64,000 nucleotides of DNA from Prosthecobacter debontii. Lineage in GTDB: Bacteria; Verrucomicrobiota; Verrucomicrobiia; Verrucomicrobiales; Verrucomicrobiaceae. Each line of letters starts with the position of its first letter. Positions within the stretch are counted from its first letter, which is position 1. The stretch is from positions 1-64,000 of the forward strand of contig CAMAQH010000012.1 of assembly GCA_945860295.1 (NCBI GenBank), read 5' to 3'. Shown here one piece after another: positions 10,986 through 63,182 of this stretch. A model generated the notes under the pieces. It was not told the DNA's origin. It did not search any database and saw only the letters and a list, made by a program, of their open reading frames with translations. The position numbers were made by a program, and so were the translations under genes.

Positions 10986-11395
10986 TGTAGAGGCTGGCGT
11001 GAGCCTTCCTGCTCGGCACCACCACCAGCAATTCACACCGCAGAGACGGCGTGCGAAAGAAGGCAAGGCTGGGGCTTCCACACACCATTTGCATCGTGTT
11101 TGAAACACTCTGTCAAGAATCGTCTGACCCTGTAGAGGAAGGCGTGAGCATTCCTTCTTTGAAGGTGAATCACATGCTACATCCAAACCCTCCCATACCA
11201 CGGAACGCTCACGCGGTTCCGCTACGGAGGCGGAGCCTTCTCGAGCAGCACCGTTTCCGTGCTCATCGCACTATGGAGCCACCCGAGGCTCTCCTGAGCC
11301 TTCTAGATCAAGGCCCCGGAGAAGGGCCTGGACTTGCGCATCGTCGGATGCAGGAAGAGCCGGTGAAGCGGCCTGTACTTTAGGGTGCTGGGAAC
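10986..11395. repeat. Intergenic stretch with three REP-like copies and a degenerate direct-repeat arm
   Basis: There is no gene between 10913 and 11379. Copies of a short element with core GCGTGAGC flanked by GGAA/TTCC occur at about 10986-11013 and 11131-11157 (plus orientation) and at about 11201-11228 (minus orientation). The last is followed by about 150 bp (to about 11380) that is recognisably similar to 12175-12325. On the minus strand the shared part reads like an eroded protein C-terminus: AQVQALL, then VAP, a stop and CDEHG. Confidence 0.55.
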
Positions 11396-11820
11396 ACGGT
11401 GAATCCGAGGAAAAGAGCCGCTTTCCGCAGACCTTTGTCCGTGCTGACCACTTCAGATTCATTCGCTCTTCTGGCGGCGGCGAGATGAAGACCATCATTG
11501 GTTCGGAGAAAGATCGGCGGGCTTTGACTTAAACAGGCATCTAGAATGTGGTAGAACTCAGTCTCCAGTTCTGGAGTGATGGATTCCTCCATGAACTGCC
11601 CCGAACGAATGAGAGCGCAAAAGGAAGCGTGCATGGCCTTCGTGGAGCCTAGACTCAAAGAACCTTCGGCCTCGCAGCGACGAAGCACCGCACGCAGTTC
11701 AAGCCTACCCGTCTCGCTTACCGTGATGAGCTGGGTATTTGCGGCATGAGTTTCAAAAGCTGAACTATCAGCCTCCTGAACATACAGTTTTGCCAGAGCC
11801 GAAGTGTCCCAGTAGCTCAT
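11380..11820 (-). CDS. vapC: PIN-domain ribonuclease toxin (VapC family)
   Basis: 146 aa from the ATG at 11820, which lies 5 bp after the antitoxin stop; the frame stays open further upstream but overlaps the antitoxin. The PIN fold signature is visible: SYWDTSALAKLYVQEADS (first catalytic Asp at residue 5), a Glu in the central region, and LRTNDGLHLAAA then VVSTDKGLRKAA with the C-terminal acidic residues. VapC toxins cleave specific tRNAs or rRNA when the antitoxin is degraded. Degenerate direct repeats lie on both sides of the vapBC pair (about 11201-11380 and 12175-12325). Confidence 0.85.
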   Translation of the reverse strand: MSYWDTSALAKLYVQEADSSAFETHAANTQLITVSETGRLELRAVLRRCEAEGSLSLGSTKAMHASFCALIRSGQFMEESITPELETEFYHILDACLSQSPPIFLRTNDGLHLAAARRANESEVVSTDKGLRKAALFLGFTVFPAP

Positions 11821-11825
11821 CGGAA

Positions 11826-12056
11826 TTAGCTGCGAATCTCGGTAATCAGTTGTTCCACCGATGTTCCAGGCTTTCCGGTCGAGCAGGCTTCTCTCATCTG
11901 TCTGACTTCCTCCAGCCACGCAGGGCGCAGGGCCGACGATGCCTGAGGAACTTTAGACACGACTTTCAGGCGCGCTTGCAGCCACGAAAGCAGTGACCAC
12001 TGATCTTGCGCTGGCAGTTCTGCTACTGCGGATTCGATTTGAACTAAAGTGCTCAT
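11826..12056 (-). CDS. Antitoxin paired with the PIN toxin
   Basis: 76 aa from the ATG at 12056. No strong fold signature is visible, but the sequence LVQIESAVAELPAQDQWSLLSWL followed by an Arg/Val linker and a C-terminal AWLEEVRQMREACSTGKPG is typical of small antitoxins placed just upstream of PIN toxins. The C-terminal half probably wraps the toxin. It is the first gene of a two-gene operon with a 5-bp gap and probably represses its own promoter. Confidence 0.7.
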   Translation of the reverse strand: MSTLVQIESAVAELPAQDQWSLLSWLQARLKVVSKVPQASSALRPAWLEEVRQMREACSTGKPGTSVEQLITEIRS

Positions 12057-12174
12057 GCATCCGATTTTAATCATTCATTCTGCTCTAGCAACTCCTTCCG
12101 TTGCAGTAATAGACGGAGGTTAGGCGTCCCCGCCTGACAGGGGCCAGAGAGGCGTCTCGCCTTTTCCCCGAGCT

Positions 12175-12325
12175 GCGGAACGCTCACGCGCTTCCGCTAC
12201 GGAGCCGGAGCCTTCTCCAACAACACATACCCATGCTCGTCGCACCTTGGAGCCAAGTTCCAGTGAATGGCATGGACTTGCGCGCATCCGGAACCCCTAT
12301 GCTGCAAGGTCGGCAATTTTGCACC
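12175..12325. repeat. Second arm of the degenerate direct repeat, including a REP-like hairpin
   Basis: At 12177-12204 the minus strand contains the element GTAGCGGAAGCGCGTGAGC...TTCCG. It is followed by similarity to 11225-11390: GGAGCCTTCTC, TGCTCGTCGCAC, TGGAGCCA and GGACTTGCGC recur in the same order. On the minus strand it encodes an apparent gene tail, LAPRCDEHGYVLLEKAPAP plus stop, with no start codon. Confidence 0.5.
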
Positions 12326-13972
12326 TCACCCGATCACCGCCGCATCGTCACCGCTGAGTTCTGCGATCTCCTTTTTGAGTCGCTCGGCATCTGTTTTGAG
12401 CTTGGTAAGCTCTTCGTTGATGCCCTCGATCTGCTGCTCGACCACGCGCTCCAGCACTTCCGGTTCACGCTCGGTGAACTGATACAGCTCATACGCAGGA
12501 CTCTCTTTGAGTGCATCGGTCGCTTCGATGACAGCGATAATCTCAGCCTCCAGGCTGTTGAAGAGCTTCTGCATTTGCTCCAGTTCGTCTGAGTCAGCGA
12601 ATTCAATGGCCGACCAACCTTGGCGCAGGACATAGCCCAGCGGATCATCGGCGATCTGTCGCAGCGTTTCCAGATCGCCACTGTCCTTGGCCGTGTTGAT
12701 GGCACCTGTAAGCTTGGTGTACGTCTCCTGCATCGCTGGATCGTTGGCGAAGCGGTCCGGGTGAAACACCTTCACCAGCTTGCGCCACAGGCCTTTGACT
12801 TCGATCTCCTCGTCGTCTGACAACCGCCGTTTGGCTTCCATGGCCGCGTCTGTGTCTTCATATTCCTGCTGGGTATGGGCATCGGCCTGCTGATACGCCT
12901 CACGCACGCGTTCCGCCTCGTCCTCGCCTTCACGGAGCAGGGTGTCGAGGAATGTCTGACGATATTTCACCACCAGCCTTAGTCGGTCGCGCTCTTCAAA
13001 ATGTCGGCGCAGGCGCTGGAAGATTTTGGCTTGCAGCGCAGTGACATGATTCTTCTCGGAGGTGTAGGCCGCTTCCAGTTCGGCGAGCCGGGCACGCGAG
13101 GCATCGATCAGACCGCGGAGCCGCTGCAAACCGGGGTGGACATAGATGACGATCCCTTCGCCCTGCGGCACTGCTTCAGTGCCGCCTTGTTGTCTCTCCG
13201 TTGAGACAAAGAAAGCCTTCGTTTCAAGAGGCAGTTCATCATCCAGCGCCCGCAGATACCAGCGACCCATACGCGCACTACTGGCATTGGATGACCCCGC
13301 CAGCCATTCCAGCCACCCGCGTAGCTCGGGATTCCGGCGCGCATCATCGATGGACTTGCCCTTGTGTTTACCAAAGGGGAAGCGGCTCGGATACCATTCA
13401 CCTTCTGCATAGGCTTTCACCGTATCCCAGGTGTGTATGCTGCGCTGCTCAGCAATGGGGCGGAGCACCTGAGCAAACAAATCCGCCACCGTCTCCACAT
13501 CGCCAAGGGCGGTGTGCGCCCCGCGTTCTGGCAGGCGGTAATACTGGCGCAGCGTTTGCAGCTTGCAGTTGCCCGCAGGCACAGGATCAAGCAGGCGCTG
13601 AGCCAGACGCAGCGCGCAGAAGCCACCGCTCCCCATGTGCCTGATGCCAAGCCGATCCCATTCAGGTCTGAGCACCCTAGCCAGATCGTAGTCAAGGTTG
13701 TAGGCGACCACTGGCAGGTCCTTCACATAAAGCCGGAGAGCCTCATAGACTTGGTTGGCGGACTCACCATCACGTTCCAAAATTTCCCGCGTGTAACCAT
13801 GCACCCGAGAGGCTTCTGGCGGGATGTCTTGATTCTGATTGATCAGTTTTCGAAAAGGCTCGCCGACAGGCTCCCATCCCCGCATCCTTTGAGCACCGAT
13901 TTCGACCACAAAGATCGGCGCGGCAAAGCCGGTCGTTTCGGTGTCGAGGATGATCCAGCCAGTTTGCATCAT
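12326..13972 (-). CDS. DEDDh exonuclease fused to DUF3820-like, coiled-coil and J-domain segments
   Basis: 548 aa. Residues 6-170 are an intact DnaQ/epsilon-type 3'-5' exonuclease: D10 and E12 (ILDTETTG), D94 (YNLDYD), H153 and D158 (AHTALGDV). Around 198-225 is a FPFGKHKGKSIDD motif like DUF3820, found elsewhere next to exonuclease domains. After a charged linker (about 290-385) comes a J-like domain, LWRKLVKVFHPDRF, with HPD at 404-406, then a C-terminal coiled coil (about 460-540). It starts 2 bp after the LRR gene stop and is surely cotranscribed with it. A DNA- or RNA-degrading enzyme with a chaperone-recruiting module is suggested; a housekeeping proofreading role is unlikely. The biological role is unknown. 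Confidence 0.82.
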   Translation of the reverse strand: MMQTGWIILDTETTGFAAPIFVVEIGAQRMRGWEPVGEPFRKLINQNQDIPPEASRVHGYTREILERDGESANQVYEALRLYVKDLPVVAYNLDYDLARVLRPEWDRLGIRHMGSGGFCALRLAQRLLDPVPAGNCKLQTLRQYYRLPERGAHTALGDVETVADLFAQVLRPIAEQRSIHTWDTVKAYAEGEWYPSRFPFGKHKGKSIDDARRNPELRGWLEWLAGSSNASSARMGRWYLRALDDELPLETKAFFVSTERQQGGTEAVPQGEGIVIYVHPGLQRLRGLIDASRARLAELEAAYTSEKNHVTALQAKIFQRLRRHFEERDRLRLVVKYRQTFLDTLLREGEDEAERVREAYQQADAHTQQEYEDTDAAMEAKRRLSDDEEIEVKGLWRKLVKVFHPDRFANDPAMQETYTKLTGAINTAKDSGDLETLRQIADDPLGYVLRQGWSAIEFADSDELEQMQKLFNSLEAEIIAVIEATDALKESPAYELYQFTEREPEVLERVVEQQIEGINEELTKLKTDAERLKKEIAELSGDDAAVIG

Positions 13973-13974
13973 GA

Positions 13975-15846
13975 TTAGAAGTTCTGGTCAGGCCGTTGGA
14001 TGAGTCGGGTCTTGTCCTTATCGTAAAAGAGTTTGGTCAGATGCTTCAAAGGATGTATGTCCAATTCGGTGAGTTGGTTGTTCCGGCAATCAAGCTCTGT
14101 AAGCAGCGGAACCGCCGACAGTTCTAGTTCACTGAGTTGGTTGAACCTACAATCAAGCTTTGTAAGCAGCGGAACCGCCGACAGCTCTAATTCGGTGAGT
14201 TGGTTGTTCCTACAAAAAAGCTTTGTAAGCAGCGGAACCACCGACAGCTCCAGTTCGGTGAGTTGGTTGTTCCCACAAAAAAGCTCTGAAAGCAGCGGAA
14301 CAGCCGACAGCTCTAGCTCGTTGAGTTGGTTGGACCCACAGGAAAGCGAGGTAAGCAGCGGAACAGCCGACAGCTCTAGTTCGGTTAGTTGGTTGTTCCT
14401 ACAAAAAAGCTCTTTAAGCAGCGGAACCGCCGACAGCTCCAGTTCGGTGAGTTGGTTGTTCCCACAATCAAGCGATGTAAGCAGCGGAACAGCCGACAGG
14501 TCCAGTTCGGTGAGTTGGTTCTTCGCGCAATGAAGCGAGGCAAGCAGCGGAACATCTGAGATGTCCAGTTCGGTGAGTTGGTTGTTTCTAAAAAAAAGCT
14601 TTGTGAGCAGCGGAAGAGCCGACATGTCCAGTTCGGTGAGTTGGTTGGACCCACAGGAAAGCGAGGTAAGCAGCGGAACAGCCGACAGCTCCAGCTCGGT
14701 GAGTTGGTTGTTCCCACAATCAAGCGAGGTAAGCAGCGGAACAGCTGCCAGCTCCAGTTCGGTGAGTTGGTTGGACCCACAAGAAAGCGAGGTAAGCAGC
14801 GGAACAGCCGCCAACTCGAGTTCGGTGAGTTGGTTGTTCCCACAATCAAGCGAGGTAAGCAGCAGAACAGCTGCCAGCTCCAGTTCGGTGAGTTTGTTTT
14901 TCCCACAAGAAAGCGATGTAAGCAGCGGAACAGCCGACAGCTCCAACTCGGTGAGTTGGTTGGACCAACAGTAAAGCTTTGTAAGCAGCGGAACCGCCGA
15001 CAGCTCTAGCTCGTTGAGTTGGTTGGACCCACAGGAAAGCGAGGTAAGCAGCGGAACAGCCGACAGCTCCAACTCGGTGAGTTGGTTGGACCCACAGGAA
15101 AGCGAGGTAAGCAACGGAACAGCCGACAGCTCCAGCTCGGTGAGTTGGTTGTGCCCACAAGAAAGCGAGGTAAGCAGCGGAACAGCCGACAAGTCCAGCT
15201 TGGTGATGTTGTTTCCTCCGAACAACCGTTGTCCGCTACAATTAAGCTCTGTAAGCAGCGGGACATCTGACAGGTCCAACTCCGTAAGTTTGTTAAACGC
15301 GCAATGAAGCTCTGTAAGTTTTGGAACTGAAGAGAGATCAAGATCCCAGAGGAACATCCAGCTACAGTTCAACTTTCTAAGGTTAGGAAGTGGAAATGAG
15401 ATCTCACCAGGCCAGTTATCCTCATTCCATTGCCCGCGGAAACGGATCGATTCGAGCACAAGCCCTTCTACCCATTCGAACGTGTCGAGTTGCAGTTCGT
15501 CTATGTCCCAAAGAAGGGAAATCATCCGACCATTCTCCAACCTCAAACCCTGCTCCAATCCAAAACAGGATTCATTTTCCGGACTCATGCGTAATAAATG
15601 CTCGATCACCGACTTTGGTTCCAAATCCAGAGACTTCGCCCAAAGCAGGATCTGCTGGTAATCCGGCTCACAAAGCTCATGCTCACCAATCCTAAACCTC
15701 CGGATCAGTGCTGCGCTAGAACTCGTGTTCTTCGACAAAATAAGGGCACCATTCACCATTTCTGCCAAAATCCGCCCACCCTGCGATCCTATTTGAACAA
15801 GGCCGCTGCCAGAATGGAGAGTGAGAGGCAGTTTTTCGTCAGCCAT
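13975..15846 (-). CDS. Leucine-rich repeat protein with about 21 near-identical repeats
   Basis: 623 aa. The N-terminal 150 residues have no recognised domain (it contains ELCEPDYQQILLWAKSLDLEP and an acidic, Trp-containing section). From about residue 170 to 605 the protein is a run of 21-residue repeats of the form LELSAVPLLTSLSCGSNQ plus LTE, about 21 in number; one (repeat 2) has a 6-residue insertion. There is no signal peptide or membrane segment, so it is probably cytoplasmic and acts as a binding scaffold. The repeats are nearly identical at DNA level, suggesting recent expansion. It leads a two-gene operon with the exonuclease/J-domain gene. Confidence 0.88.
   Translation of the reverse strand: MADEKLPLTLHSGSGLVQIGSQGGRILAEMVNGALILSKNTSSSAALIRRFRIGEHELCEPDYQQILLWAKSLDLEPKSVIEHLLRMSPENESCFGLEQGLRLENGRMISLLWDIDELQLDTFEWVEGLVLESIRFRGQWNEDNWPGEISFPLPNLRKLNCSWMFLWDLDLSSVPKLTELHCAFNKLTELDLSDVPLLTELNCSGQRLFGGNNITKLDLSAVPLLTSLSCGHNQLTELELSAVPLLTSLSCGSNQLTELELSAVPLLTSLSCGSNQLNELELSAVPLLTKLYCWSNQLTELELSAVPLLTSLSCGKNKLTELELAAVLLLTSLDCGNNQLTELELAAVPLLTSLSCGSNQLTELELAAVPLLTSLDCGNNQLTELELSAVPLLTSLSCGSNQLTELDMSALPLLTKLFFRNNQLTELDISDVPLLASLHCAKNQLTELDLSAVPLLTSLDCGNNQLTELELSAVPLLKELFCRNNQLTELELSAVPLLTSLSCGSNQLNELELSAVPLLSELFCGNNQLTELELSVVPLLTKLFCRNNQLTELELSAVPLLTKLDCRFNQLSELELSAVPLLTELDCRNNQLTELDIHPLKHLTKLFYDKDKTRLIQRPDQNF
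14035..15330 (-). repeat. 63-bp tandem repeat array inside the LRR gene
   Basis: Successive 63-bp units repeat with small changes; for example AAGCAGCGGAAC recurs every 63 bp across nearly the whole interval. One unit near 15215-15240 is interrupted by 18 extra bp. The high DNA identity makes the locus prone to copy-number change. Confidence 0.9.
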
Positions 15847-16022: not shown

Positions 16023-16463
16023 ATGACTGAACACCTGAGATACAGATTCAAGCTTAACAAAGCCCGTAAAAATATCAGCCGTACACGGGATGAATTTCGT
16101 TCACGCATAGCAGGAGCGAAAAAGGAAAATAACAAGTTACTCATGGCAGATCTTGAAGGTGAAGCGCACCACGAGATTAAAACAGCCCAAGCGGAATTTG
16201 CATGGTTGCGAAGCCGATACTGGACATCTCAGGCCAGCAAATGGGAGGTCGCTCTTCCGGCACAAGATGAGACGCATTGGGAAGACTATGACGGCACCGA
16301 ATTTGACGGCCATTTTTTGAGCCTCGCTGGCGTCACCTATGTGAGAAACGCGGTCCGTGAAGAATCAAGTCGTTCTCGGAAATTGATATTCGAGTGGCTC
16401 ACGATGCTCGTCGGAATCATCGGAGCGGCAACCGGCCTCATTGCCGTGTGGTACAGCAAGTAG
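16023..16463 (+). CDS. Small membrane-anchored protein of unknown function
   Basis: 146 aa. Residues 1-60 are strongly charged and look helical or coiled (many Lys, Arg and Glu); residues 60-115 are mixed, and the C-terminus (LIFEWLTMLVGIIGAATGLIAVW) is one transmembrane helix, so most of the protein would face the cytoplasm. No family is recognised. It is divergently oriented to the LRR gene with 176 bp between, in the same accessory stretch, and has no downstream partner. A tail-anchored effector or regulator is only a guess. Confidence 0.7.
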   Translation: MTEHLRYRFKLNKARKNISRTRDEFRSRIAGAKKENNKLLMADLEGEAHHEIKTAQAEFAWLRSRYWTSQASKWEVALPAQDETHWEDYDGTEFDGHFLSLAGVTYVRNAVREESSRSRKLIFEWLTMLVGIIGAATGLIAVWYSK

Positions 16464-18018: not shown

Positions 18019-18813
18019 ATGCCCTTTGACCCATCCCTTCCCGCCACGAATTCGCCGCTGCAATCGCAGGTGGTGCGTGATCAACTGCAAGCGCTGTTCA
18101 ACCTCATCAACAACATCGTCACCGTCACCGCTGCGCAGGTGGATGGTGTCACGACTCTACTGCCCGGTGAGGCGGCGAGCGCGGGCCTGACAGTGACCGG
18201 TGACACCCTGCACTTCACCTTCGGGATCCCGCGTGGTGATGAGGGGGTGCAGGGGCAAAATGGTGCCGACGGTGCCAACGGCACGAACGGCGCTGATGGT
18301 GCCGTGGGACCTCCGGGGCCACCCTTTGCCCAAGCTGTGGTGGATGCGGTAAACACGCTCAATCCCGGTGACCCTGCCACCGTGAGCGTGACTTTTGACG
18401 GGGTGAATGTGCACTTCAGTTACGGCATCCCGCGTGGGAATAATGGTGTCGATGGCACCGATGGTGCCATTGGCCCGCAAGGACCACCCTTTGCCCAGGC
18501 CGTGATCGACAGCGTGAACACCCTGCCACCCGGAACCCCTGCCACGGTGGGCGTGAGCTTTGATGGCAGCAACGTGCACTTTGTCTTCAGCATCCCTGAA
18601 GGAGCCAGTGGCGGTGAAGGCCCGCAGGGCGACCAAGGCCCGCCCGGTGAGGTGACCAATGCCGCCCTAGCCGGTGCGATAAGCAGCACCAGCAGTAACT
18701 CGAATGCGGTGCCGACCTTGGACACGCCTTTTGTGAATGATCCGCCCACACTCGCGGACATGGAGGTGATGCGCGTGAAGATGAATGAGCTGATCACCGC
18801 GCTGCGGCGATAA
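18019..18813 (+). CDS. Collagen-like (Gly-X-Y) repeat protein
   Basis: 264 aa without a signal peptide. It has three modules, each a short beta-rich unit (VDGVTTLLPGEAASAGLTVT; AVVDAVNTLNPGDPATVSVT; AVIDSVNTLPPGTPATVGVS) ending in HFxFGIP or HFSYGIP, then a Gly-X-Y stretch such as GADGANGTNGADG, GPPGPP and GPQGDQGPPG. This alternation of globular unit and short triple helix resembles phage tail-fibre and spore-surface proteins. The C-terminus (about 225-264) is a predicted helix. It may be a trimeric fibre protein; export route and role are unknown. Confidence 0.75.
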   Translation: MPFDPSLPATNSPLQSQVVRDQLQALFNLINNIVTVTAAQVDGVTTLLPGEAASAGLTVTGDTLHFTFGIPRGDEGVQGQNGADGANGTNGADGAVGPPGPPFAQAVVDAVNTLNPGDPATVSVTFDGVNVHFSYGIPRGNNGVDGTDGAIGPQGPPFAQAVIDSVNTLPPGTPATVGVSFDGSNVHFVFSIPEGASGGEGPQGDQGPPGEVTNAALAGAISSTSSNSNAVPTLDTPFVNDPPTLADMEVMRVKMNELITALRR

Positions 18814-61700: not shown

Positions 61701-63182
61701 CTAGTTACAACCCAGCGCCGCCAGCACATTGCGGAAATTCGCTAATCCAGCCTCGATGTTCTCCACGATCTCCTCGCCGAGGTCTTTTGGGTCGGGGAGG
61801 TTGTCGAGGTCGGCGAGGCTTTTGTCTTTGAGCCAGAAGGTGTCTAGGCTCGTCTTGTCGCGGGCCAGGATCTCGGCGTGGGTGAATTTACGCCAGCGGC
61901 ATTCGGGGTTCGTCTCGGGGTGCCAGGTTTCTTGGCGCTGGTGACGGTCGGCGGGGTGGTAGCAGGTGATGAAGTCGGCGAGGTCTTCGGCACGCATCGG
62001 CTTCCGCTTCAGGGTGTGGTGGATGTTGGTGCGGTAGTCGTAATACCAGACTTCCTTGGTCCACGCCGTCTTGGCCGCCGGTTTGTTGTCAAAGAAGAGC
62101 ACGTTCGCCTTCACGCCGTTGGCGTAAAAGATGCCGGTGGGCAGGCGCAGGATGGTGTGCAGATCGGTGTTCTCCAGCAGCTTCTTGCGGACGGTTTCAC
62201 CCACGCCGCCTTCAAAGAGCACGTTGTCTGGCAGCACCACGGCTGCTTGGCCTGTCGTCTTGAGCATCGTGCGGATGTGCTGGAGGAAGTTGAGCTGCTT
62301 GTTACTGCTCGTGGCCCAGAAGTCCTGCCGGTTATAAACGAGGTCGTCCTTCTCTTCCTCGCCTTCGTCGTTGGTGAAGGTCATGCTGCTCTTCTTGCCG
62401 AAGGGCGGGTTCGCCAGCACGTAGTCGTAGCGCTTGCCATTATCGGCGACCAGCGCGTCCGTCGATGACACGCAGCTCTCGCCGTCGATCTCACCGATGT
62501 TGTGCAGCAGCAGGTTCATCAAACAGAGGCGCCGAGTGTTGGCGACGATCTCATGGCCGTAGAAGGTTTCCTTCTTCAGGAAAGTCTTCTGCGCCTTGTT
62601 CAGCGTCGGCAGCCTGGTCAGGTAATCATAGGCCGCGAGGAAGAAACCGCCCGTGCCGCAGGCCGGATCGGCGATGGTCTTTTCCGGCAGAGGGCGCAGG
62701 CATTCGACCATCACTTGGATCAACGAACGCGGGGTGAAGTATTGCCCAGCTCCGCTCTTGGTATCTTCGGCATTCTTTTCCAGCAGGCCTTCGTAGATGT
62801 CGCCCTTCACATCGGCTCCCATCGTCACCCATTCGGTTTGATCGACCATTTCGACCACGCGGGCCAGCTTGGCCGGGTCCTGGATCTTGTTTTGGCTCTT
62901 GGTGAAGACTTGGCCCAGGATGTTGGAATGGTTGGCCAGCACCCGCAGGGTGGTGACGTAGTGGACCTCCAGTTCTGCGCCTTTGAGCTTCTTCAGCGTG
63001 GGCCACGAGTATTCAGCAGGCACACCAATCGTCCGATTGTGCGGCGGGCGACTGTATTCGTCTGCCATTTTCAGGAAGATCAGGTAGGTCAGTTGTTCGA
63101 GGTAGTCGCCATAGCCCACGCCGTCGTCACGGAGCGTGGTGCAAAAGCCCCAGACTTTGGAAATGATGGAATCAGTGGACAT
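61701..63182 (-). CDS. hsdM: Type I restriction-modification DNA methyltransferase subunit HsdM
   Basis: 493 aa. Residues 1-130 are the HsdM N-domain (IISKVWGFCTTLRDDGVGYGDYLEQLTYLIFLKMADEYS); the methylase core has SAM motif DPACGTGGF at 172-180 and catalytic NPPFG at 258-262, preceded by GQYFTPR. It is an N6-adenine methylase. Neither hsdS nor hsdR follows; a transposase and its repeats lie between it and the next upstream gene. The methylase may be orphan or served by an hsdS beyond the window. Confidence 0.92.
   Translation of the reverse strand: MSTDSIISKVWGFCTTLRDDGVGYGDYLEQLTYLIFLKMADEYSRPPHNRTIGVPAEYSWPTLKKLKGAELEVHYVTTLRVLANHSNILGQVFTKSQNKIQDPAKLARVVEMVDQTEWVTMGADVKGDIYEGLLEKNAEDTKSGAGQYFTPRSLIQVMVECLRPLPEKTIADPACGTGGFFLAAYDYLTRLPTLNKAQKTFLKKETFYGHEIVANTRRLCLMNLLLHNIGEIDGESCVSSTDALVADNGKRYDYVLANPPFGKKSSMTFTNDEGEEEKDDLVYNRQDFWATSSNKQLNFLQHIRTMLKTTGQAAVVLPDNVLFEGGVGETVRKKLLENTDLHTILRLPTGIFYANGVKANVLFFDNKPAAKTAWTKEVWYYDYRTNIHHTLKRKPMRAEDLADFITCYHPADRHQRQETWHPETNPECRWRKFTHAEILARDKTSLDTFWLKDKSLADLDNLPDPKDLGEEIVENIEAGLANFRNVLAALGCN

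Follow-up and report, generated by a model that had tools for sequence, protein, structure and literature searches.

Two groups of systems are among the closest described counterparts of the locus described here. Kaur et al. (2020; PMC7159879) present modular conflict systems in which small adaptor domains couple interchangeable sensor and effector modules; one of the themes in that article, GAP1-N2, comes with an Hsp70, a GrpE, and a DnaJ-FNIII protein, and some of the systems occur in Verrucomicrobia. For bNACHT25, host DnaJ is reported to take part in phage sensing (PMC12169576). We compare with these a two-gene operon in a 64,000-nucleotide stretch of DNA (hereafter the window) from Prosthecobacter debontii (Verrucomicrobiota; contig CAMAQH010000012.1, positions 1 to 64,000), which encodes a leucine-rich repeat (LRR) protein with an N-terminal tag and a second protein, here named ExoJ, that joins a DEDDh exonuclease, a coiled coil, and a J-domain with an HPD motif. 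The pair is probably a conflict- or defence-type system with no description in the literature covered here, and our judgement leans, somewhat beyond an even chance, toward a modular conflict system of the defence type that moves horizontally and has ExoJ and its partner at its core; in it, ExoJ would act as an Hsp70-recruiting hub for a tag-docked receptor.

The tagged partner and the ExoJ hub

Both open reading frames (ORFs) were confirmed on the minus strand, with the LRR gene upstream and, in agreement with a preliminary description made from the sequence of the window, 2 bp between its stop and the start of ExoJ. The features of the two genes, drawn from the ORFs, Pfam and profile matches, alignments, and AlphaFold2 (AF2) models, are as follows.

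13975..15846, minus strand: tagged receptor gene, 623 aa (tag, second N-terminal motif, and LRR solenoid); ORF, LRR_4 (Pfam, 7.5e-50), AF2 model
15727..15846, minus strand: N-terminal tag, residues ~1–40; tag profile, cross-lineage profiles, predicted helix 23–40
15589..15699, minus strand: second N-terminal motif IGxHxxCEPDYxQIxxWA, residues ~50–86; alignments
14041..15318, minus strand: LRR array, residues ~177–602; repeat pattern, AF2 model
12326..13972, minus strand: ExoJ hub gene, 548 aa; ORF, family alignments A6/A7, AF2 model
13475..13954, minus strand: DEDDh exonuclease domain, residues 7–166; RNase_T (Pfam, 1.1e-15), DnaQ/DinG/Cas2-DEDDh folds, residues intact
13238..13387, minus strand: FGKHKG...MGRWYL middle region, residues 196–245, ExoX-C-like; weak ExoX-like_C match
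12836..13135, minus strand: predicted long coiled-coil helical hairpin, residues 280–379; AF2 model
12623..12817, minus strand: J-domain, residues ~386–450, with HPD 404–406 at 12755–12763; PF00226, HPD, flanking helices
12353..12583, minus strand: predicted C-terminal helical hairpin, residues 464–540; AF2 model

The presence of the tagged partner beside ExoJ is conserved well beyond the window. A pattern-based scan of a genome collection covering 84,980 species yielded 31 named ExoJ loci (numbered L; genomes are numbered G), which by record title belong to Verrucomicrobia, one Lentisphaerae bin, and Alpha-, Beta-, and Gammaproteobacteria (Phenylobacterium, Polaromonas, Caenimonas, Aquabacterium, Thiocystis, Allochromatium, and Halothiobacillus). 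Some titles look doubtful: the ExoJ of L086, from a record titled Klebsiella pneumoniae, groups with Verrucomicrobiota in the tree, and L061 and L064, titled Akkermansia muciniphila, have match positions equal to those of G036 and G031 from the genus of the window. With the upstream sequence too short to judge in L073, L081, and L086, 28 of the 31 loci were scored, and 25 of these carry the ~40-aa tag upstream of ExoJ at a profile score of at least 25 bits (L058–L072, L075–L080, and L082–L085, including L066, where tag and LRR lie in different frames, and the truncated L084); L074 has an LRR partner in which the profile does not find the tag. The gap between partner and ExoJ is −4 to +13 bp in 22 of 29 scored cases (the window, L029, L157, L166, and 25 named loci, with the start of L065 guessed), the others being L058, L060, L063, L075, L077, L082, and L157.

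Among 96 related genomes (the window's own included), an ExoJ-family match at E ≤ 0.001 is present in 19, extending over nearly the full length in 10 of these, and the N-terminal profile of the tagged protein matches in 10, in every case beside an ExoJ gene. A tag search of 22 whole genomes gave matches in 20; all 28 matches at E ≤ 3.1e-4 lie at an ExoJ, ExoJ-fragment, or exonuclease-less hub locus or at a contig edge (G484), and the two weakest (E 0.0014 and 0.0096), found outside such loci, are probably chance. ExoJ is usually the last gene, with tagged genes 3' of it in L077 and L081; there are two tagged genes each in L062 and L077 and five in genome G476, sometimes in tandem around one ExoJ. 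Decayed copies also occur (L057, L084, and L087, and remnants in G036 and G051). Judged by these sequence comparisons, partner and ExoJ are a real conserved two-gene unit, and the co-occurrence survey that the preliminary description had called for did not give homologues standing alone everywhere with no pairing.

The tag profile matches the window protein at E 1.7e-15, the window itself being 1 of the 14 rows of the profile. Whether built from Proteobacteria alone or from Verrucomicrobiota alone, a profile finds some, though not all, of the other set's members among 9,755 frames, and apart from two remnants that still bear the tag (L066 4389–4772 and L072 603–740), the matches are tagged genes; as all frames come from fetched loci of the ExoJ family, this speaks for one tag family and not for the rarity of the tag. 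In the AF2 model of the partner (mean predicted local distance difference test score [pLDDT] 89.2, predicted template modelling score [pTM] 0.80), the repeat solenoid follows an isolated helix at residues 23–40, and the N-terminus is of low confidence (pLDDT <50 at residues 1–25, 28–30, and 32–46). The second motif is present in LRR-type partners and missing from the partner with tetratricopeptide repeats (TPR). Pattern matching finds 19 repeats in the window array, and 18 of these follow one another at an unbroken spacing of 21 aa; Pfam gives LRR families and one weak DUF4750 match for this protein, and no NACHT or STAND ATPase.

In ExoJ, the catalytic set D10, E12, D96, H153, and D158 is complete, as the preliminary description had it, and together with the RNase_T/DnaQ fold these residues place the protein among the DEDDh exonucleases; in fold comparisons the first domain matches, among others, DnaQ, DinG, Cas2-DEDDh, TREX1/2, and Cap18, and the AF2 model (mean pLDDT 82.5, pTM 0.48) is DnaQ-like in its N-terminal domain. 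The coiled-coil hairpin is modelled with high confidence (block pLDDT 90–96, residues 291–380), and the HPD at 404–406, likewise present as described, lies between predicted helices 386–402 and 412–431. The J-domain claimed alongside it stands in part: the window protein alone scores 18.5 bits against PF00226, under the Pfam cut-off of 27.8, but its assignment as a J-domain is supported by the family, since among the 25 aligned ExoJ members 21 reach E ≤ 0.01 against PF00226, the lowest value being 9.5e-6. An exonuclease-less relative (L048) reaches 29.6 bits, over the cut-off. Among the PDB fold matches listed for ExoJ, which exonucleases fill, there is no J-domain. The DUF3820-like motif of the preliminary description fell away, as the FGKHKG motif (residues ~196–245) has no DUF3820 match in Pfam up to E 1; the sole match of this region is a weak one to ExoX-like_C (E 0.14 in the window, 0.0032 in 1 of 25 members). 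M235–L240 within it is invariant in all 22 aligned ExoJ. Pfam finds no nucleoside triphosphatase (NTPase) family up to E 1 in ExoJ or in the LRR protein.

Payloads, first genes, and the state of the exonuclease

Alignments and Pfam matches show, at the level of sequence, that the conserved tag is followed by one of several unrelated domains. The payload is an LRR array in the window and in most partners, TPR in L028/L058 (2.4e-32), Sel1 repeats in the first tagged gene of L062 (1.2e-121) and also in L065 and L082, a response-regulator receiver domain in the second tagged gene of L062 (1.3e-18), and an Hsp70 substrate-binding region in L063 (9.6e-25, profile positions 388–520 of 599). In L157, a receiver-like payload (20.8 bits, below cut-off) precedes a hub without the exonuclease domain. 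Payloads differ even between close hubs: on the full-length tree, the ExoJ of the window, whose partner carries LRR, forms a sister pair with that of L058, whose partner carries TPR, at 99/96 support.

Within the LRR arrays, variability is highest at unit positions 3, 5, 7, and 8 (LxxLxCxxN), which, going by LRR structure, we take to be the exposed face, and several framework codons are nearly invariant. The ratio of nonsynonymous to synonymous differences per site (pN/pS) in the window array is 1.31 at positions 2, 3, 5, 7, and 8 vs 0.33 elsewhere. Of 14 genes given, 13 were scored (L070, with 3 units, was left out); in 13/13 arrays the ratio is higher on the exposed face than in the framework, and on the exposed face it is greater than 1 in 7/13, although structural constraint alone conserves a framework, repeat pairs are non-independent, and some arrays are related and some saturated. 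This pattern points, short of proof, to diversifying selection on the exposed LRR face. Judged by the exchangeable payloads and the variation on the exposed face, the repeat protein resembles a module for recognition, the role that the preliminary description had given it.

Several loci have an extra same-strand gene 5' of the tagged gene, here termed the first gene. This encodes SLFN_AlbA_2 in L036 (2.3e-7), Trypsin_2 in L037 (2.2e-12, beside an ExoJ fragment) and, below cut-off, in L029 and L063, a PtuB/PDC-M01B-type HNH protein in L084 (1.7e-8), and a relative of a DRT-associated HEPN protein in L031 (3.5e-5); in L029, a PADLOC match to LmuA covers 34 residues only. Pfam assigns no significant family to the first genes of L028, L030, L032, L035, and L062. 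The optional first gene is shown by these matches to be exchangeable, and it resembles a defence enzyme in some loci. The window has no recognisable first gene on the operon strand.

The constant part is the J-domain of ExoJ. Besides the window, alignment A7 contains 24 of the 31 named loci (L057, L065, L073, L079, L081, L084, and L085 were left out, mostly as partial), and the HPD is kept in all 25 aligned hubs, whereas D-E-D-H-D is intact in 17 of the 24 scorable ExoJ and broken in 7 (L061, L064, L067, L069, L078, L080, and L083); the exonuclease site of the truncated L087 was not scored. On the tree of the coiled-coil/J half (hereafter the J-half), the state of exonuclease activity requires four parsimony changes, three of them forced by well-supported branches. 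The hub of L157 consists of the J-half only (residues 285–551), 72% identical to that of L063. Nei-Gojobori estimates of omega (the ratio of nonsynonymous to synonymous substitution rates), which are rough because synonymous divergence (dS) is often near or >1, are, for the exonuclease domain, 0.10–0.14 in the four dead/dead pairs, 0.09–0.16 in the five active pairs, and 0.16 in the single dead/active pair; where both members are dead, constraint is tightest on the J-domain (0.00–0.03). By these estimates, the dead exonuclease domain is still under purifying selection, and the comparison of aligned residues shows the constant functional signature of the hub to be the HPD of the J-domain, not the nuclease. 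Relatives of the exonuclease domain are found in other contexts, with the match ending at that domain (L038 8067–8681, 43% identity, and G245, G260, G290, G185, and G172).

These results bear directly on the model that grows out of the preliminary description, in which the LRR protein senses and the exonuclease degrades invading nucleic acid as the essential effector, the J-domain being accessory. The complete catalytic residues of the window and of 17/24 ExoJ in all agree with such a role, as do the defence-linked DEDDh proteins, Cas2-DEDDh and Cap18, among the fold matches. However, catalysis is lost in 7/24 while omega stays low in the dead/dead pairs, L157 has a hub without the domain, and exonuclease-less sister operons exist (see the last section), so that we consider this model improbable; a role of the exonuclease as the necessary output is not supported. 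Across the family, a nuclease effector does not hold as a rule, but it may do so for the window copy, where the site is intact and no first gene is recognisable. The preliminary description had overlooked that the partners have a tag in common, that their payloads are exchanged, that a variable first gene can precede them, and that the J-domain stays constant.

The short coupled operons, the decayed copies, and some toxin–antitoxin neighbours would also suit an addiction-type or selfish module, with the first gene (or the exonuclease) as a toxin checked by the tagged protein and the hub, and with persistence rather than defence maintaining it. Payload exchange and a variable LRR face would be unexpected for an antitoxin, though, and two-gene forms occur that combine a dead exonuclease with no recognisable first gene (L078, L080, and L083); we regard this explanation as very unlikely.

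Genomic setting and proposed mode of action

Within the genus of the window, an aminotransferase gene (named by eye) in 45 of 47 genomes marks one site. Of its 45 flanks, 20 were fetched, and 8 of these have an isomerase-like gene (by eye) upstream; the other 12 differ or lie on too short a contig. The isomerase–aminotransferase interval measures ~470 bp in G020 and G012 and 682 bp in G027; it holds a first gene, a tagged LRR gene, and ExoJ in G032, a Type IV restriction protein match (mREase_IV, 7.3e-52) in G030, and other genes in G011, G022, and G001, for which one protein tested each gave no PADLOC match. In all, PADLOC matched one of five upstream-flank proteins of this cargo (G030), and in G036 it matched a WYL protein and not a second one. 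G031 and G002 likewise have ExoJ 5' of the aminotransferase, with a left flank that was not reached, and in G036 a 30-residue ExoJ remnant lies 0.75 kb before this gene. The operon thus shares a variable site with defence genes, at this one site only. The operon of L074 has a tyrosine integrase at a distance of 0.7 kb, and L166, which is an IMG/VR contig, has a serine recombinase 0.5 kb from its operon. The accessory, defence-like setting proposed in the preliminary description is supported by the variable site and the two integrases, and the unit appears mobile, judging from its scattered presence.

The same observations weigh on an alternative without any defence role, in which the pair is a client-specific chaperone adaptor: the tagged payload would pick a host client, ExoJ would deliver it to DnaK, and the variable part would adapt to clients. 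In favour of this alternative, the J-domain is constant, the L063 payload is itself an Hsp70 substrate-binding region, and Sel1, TPR, and LRR are generic protein-binding repeats. Against this, the patchy presence (19/96 relatives), the Type IV restriction gene that takes the operon's place at one site, the integrase neighbours, and the relationship of the first genes to defence nucleases in two loci are all ill-suited to housekeeping. A chaperone adaptor is therefore unlikely in our estimation, although less so than the exonuclease-effector model.

J-domains deliver clients to Hsp70. In the defence-type reading that we favour, the tag helix would hold the partner to ExoJ, with the coiled-coil/J half as the probable docking site, since that half is kept where the exonuclease domain is missing; we read the tag as a docking helix because it is constant in the partner, is predicted to be a lone helix, and persists with an exonuclease-less hub. 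The payload would bind a foreign or disturbed protein, and the J-domain would recruit the Hsp70 of the host (DnaK) either to the target so bound or to the complex itself, which would be remodelled, releasing an output; this output would be the ExoJ exonuclease where intact (as in the window) and otherwise the first-gene enzyme. Recognition by the payload, Hsp70 recruitment, and an exchangeable output make up what we see as the simplest mechanism in common, because the payloads are protein-binding or signal-receiving and J-domains deliver clients; docking, the defence role, and the use of Hsp70 are all inferred from sequence. A more tentative extension, which we find possible but less likely than not, is a chaperone-armed innate immunity in which interchangeable, fast-diversifying receptors plug into a J-domain hub via one N-terminal helix and Hsp70, handed the foreign protein by the hub, both disarms the target and switches on an exchangeable effector, be it exonuclease, HNH, HEPN, Schlafen, or protease.

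Several observations weigh against the defence-type reading or parts of it. As to docking, none of the 25 ExoJ proteins matches the tag profile up to E 10, on which ground the tag was also rejected as a homotypic effector-associated domain (EAD). L057 and L087 (2/28 loci) are without a tagged start, although in sequence they look like deletion alleles. The sister pairing of the window and L058 hubs is not resolved on the J-half tree, and in the active pair L071/L076 the J-half (omega 0.35–0.44) is looser than the exonuclease (0.14). PADLOC matches 3 of 12 first genes (L029, L031, and L084), and many proteobacterial loci, including the exonuclease-dead L078, L080, and L083, have no recognisable first gene. 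The defence-type neighbours near ExoJ, namely Fic (L063), BrnT (L071; below cut-off in L066), DUF433/DUF5615 (L086), and GmrSD_N (L068), were chosen by eye from the flanks and so are not enrichment evidence. A plasmid- or phage-borne system was considered and rejected, with 0 plasmid matches (two queries), 0 phage matches (one query), and one viral IMG/VR contig. At the window's own site, a cytochrome c peroxidase neighbour (by eye) is present in 41 of 47 genomes, and the 12 of these 41 regions that were fetched have no shared right flank. Lastly, the system is rare: in an even draw of 387 genomes of the phylum, 41 match the ExoJ profile, and only the window's own genome matches over the J-half, the other 40 matching, as listed, in the exonuclease part only.

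If the favoured reading is true, the operon would represent a conflict system built on Hsp70 recruitment rather than on an NTPase switch, with a plug-in receptor slot, and would offer a handle on chaperones in bacterial immunity (compare DnaJ in bNACHT25 sensing) as well as a natural receptor series on one scaffold, with a tag usable to find more partners. The repeatedly dead yet conserved exonuclease is also a caution against inferring an effector from one intact catalytic site.

The surroundings of the operon in the window were described earlier as an accessory stretch with vapBC and repetitive extragenic palindromic (REP)-like repeats, and this holds in part. The downstream gene pair (11380–12074) is plausibly vapBC, with a PIN domain at 26.4 bits (Pfam cut-off 23.6), but the antitoxin ORF has no significant Pfam family. 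One 31-base REP-like motif, the only one checked, has two copies in the window (12173–12203 exact, 11198–11228 with 3 mismatches) and none in 100 shuffles. The vapBC pair was rejected as a component and treated as a neighbour, as no gene is common 3' of ExoJ in 29 loci (L063, L075, and L079 end off a stop codon, and some loci have little remaining sequence); the exceptions are L059, L064, and L085, which share the aminotransferase site flank, and L077, where a tagged gene follows. A divergent 146-aa gene (16023–16463, plus strand) was likewise left out as a candidate effector, with no homologue in 55 other genomes and a single weak PADLOC match (Csx1, E 0.023); by eye, the C-terminal part of its product includes a hydrophobic stretch. 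The operon has a collagen-like gene nearby in the window (18019–18813, plus strand), in L032 (by eye), and in L057 (G021), where collagen-like matching sequence runs into the middle of the LRR array, as if by deletion. Farther away, the start of an ORF at 61701–63182 (minus strand) resembles a type I restriction methylase (HsdM), by eye.

Comparison with known systems

In the open-licence literature, we found no description of an exonuclease–J-domain protein with tagged repeat partners. Cas2-DEDDh and Cap18, the latter belonging to the cyclic-oligonucleotide-based antiphage signalling system (CBASS), have in common with ExoJ the exonuclease fold and, in the window, the catalytic set; unlike them, ExoJ is fused to a coiled coil and a J-domain, has tagged receptor partners, and is catalytically broken in 7/24 members. 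In the PADLOC candidate PDC-S48, residues 1–237 of 411 match ExoJ 1–245 (E 1.1e-18), that is, the exonuclease and the next ~70 residues; the coiled coil/J-half has no match in the PADLOC search.

The EAD-linked chaperone and GTPase systems, as presented in PMC7159879, share with the ExoJ operons a modular organization, a chaperone logic, superstructure-forming repeats, and FGS (FGE-type) modules. However, their described cores are NTPases (MoxR/vWA, GTPase, or STAND) or others, whereas no NTPase family was found in the ExoJ/LRR pair; their adaptor is homotypic, whereas the tag of the ExoJ operons is in the partner and in none of the 25 ExoJ; and the word "exonuclease" is absent from the main text of that article. 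The likeness to bNACHT25, as reported in PMC12169576, is that a J-protein serves phage sensing by an immune receptor; there, host DnaJ works with a NACHT receptor, whereas ExoJ has an operon-encoded J-domain and the pair has no NTPase family found.

Relatives of the J-half occur in J-FGE sister operons, clearly present in 4 of 96 related genomes (L048, L049, L050, and L051 in G011, G032, G091, and G092). In these, an exonuclease-less J/coiled-coil gene is followed by a gene for a protein with an FGE-sulfatase domain (three loci) or LRR-like repeats by eye (one locus); the match to the J gene crosses a stop in 2 of the 4 loci, and there are two more weak matches (G056 and G043 C694). The exonuclease-less sister hub was found in 0 of 387 genomes of the phylum at 1e-12, in a draw that excluded the known positives. 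The L048 J protein is 18–25% identical to the J-half of three ExoJ members. Although the sister operons have a different tag, a reversed gene order, and no exonuclease, their partner proteins carry an analogous N-terminal helix-like stretch.

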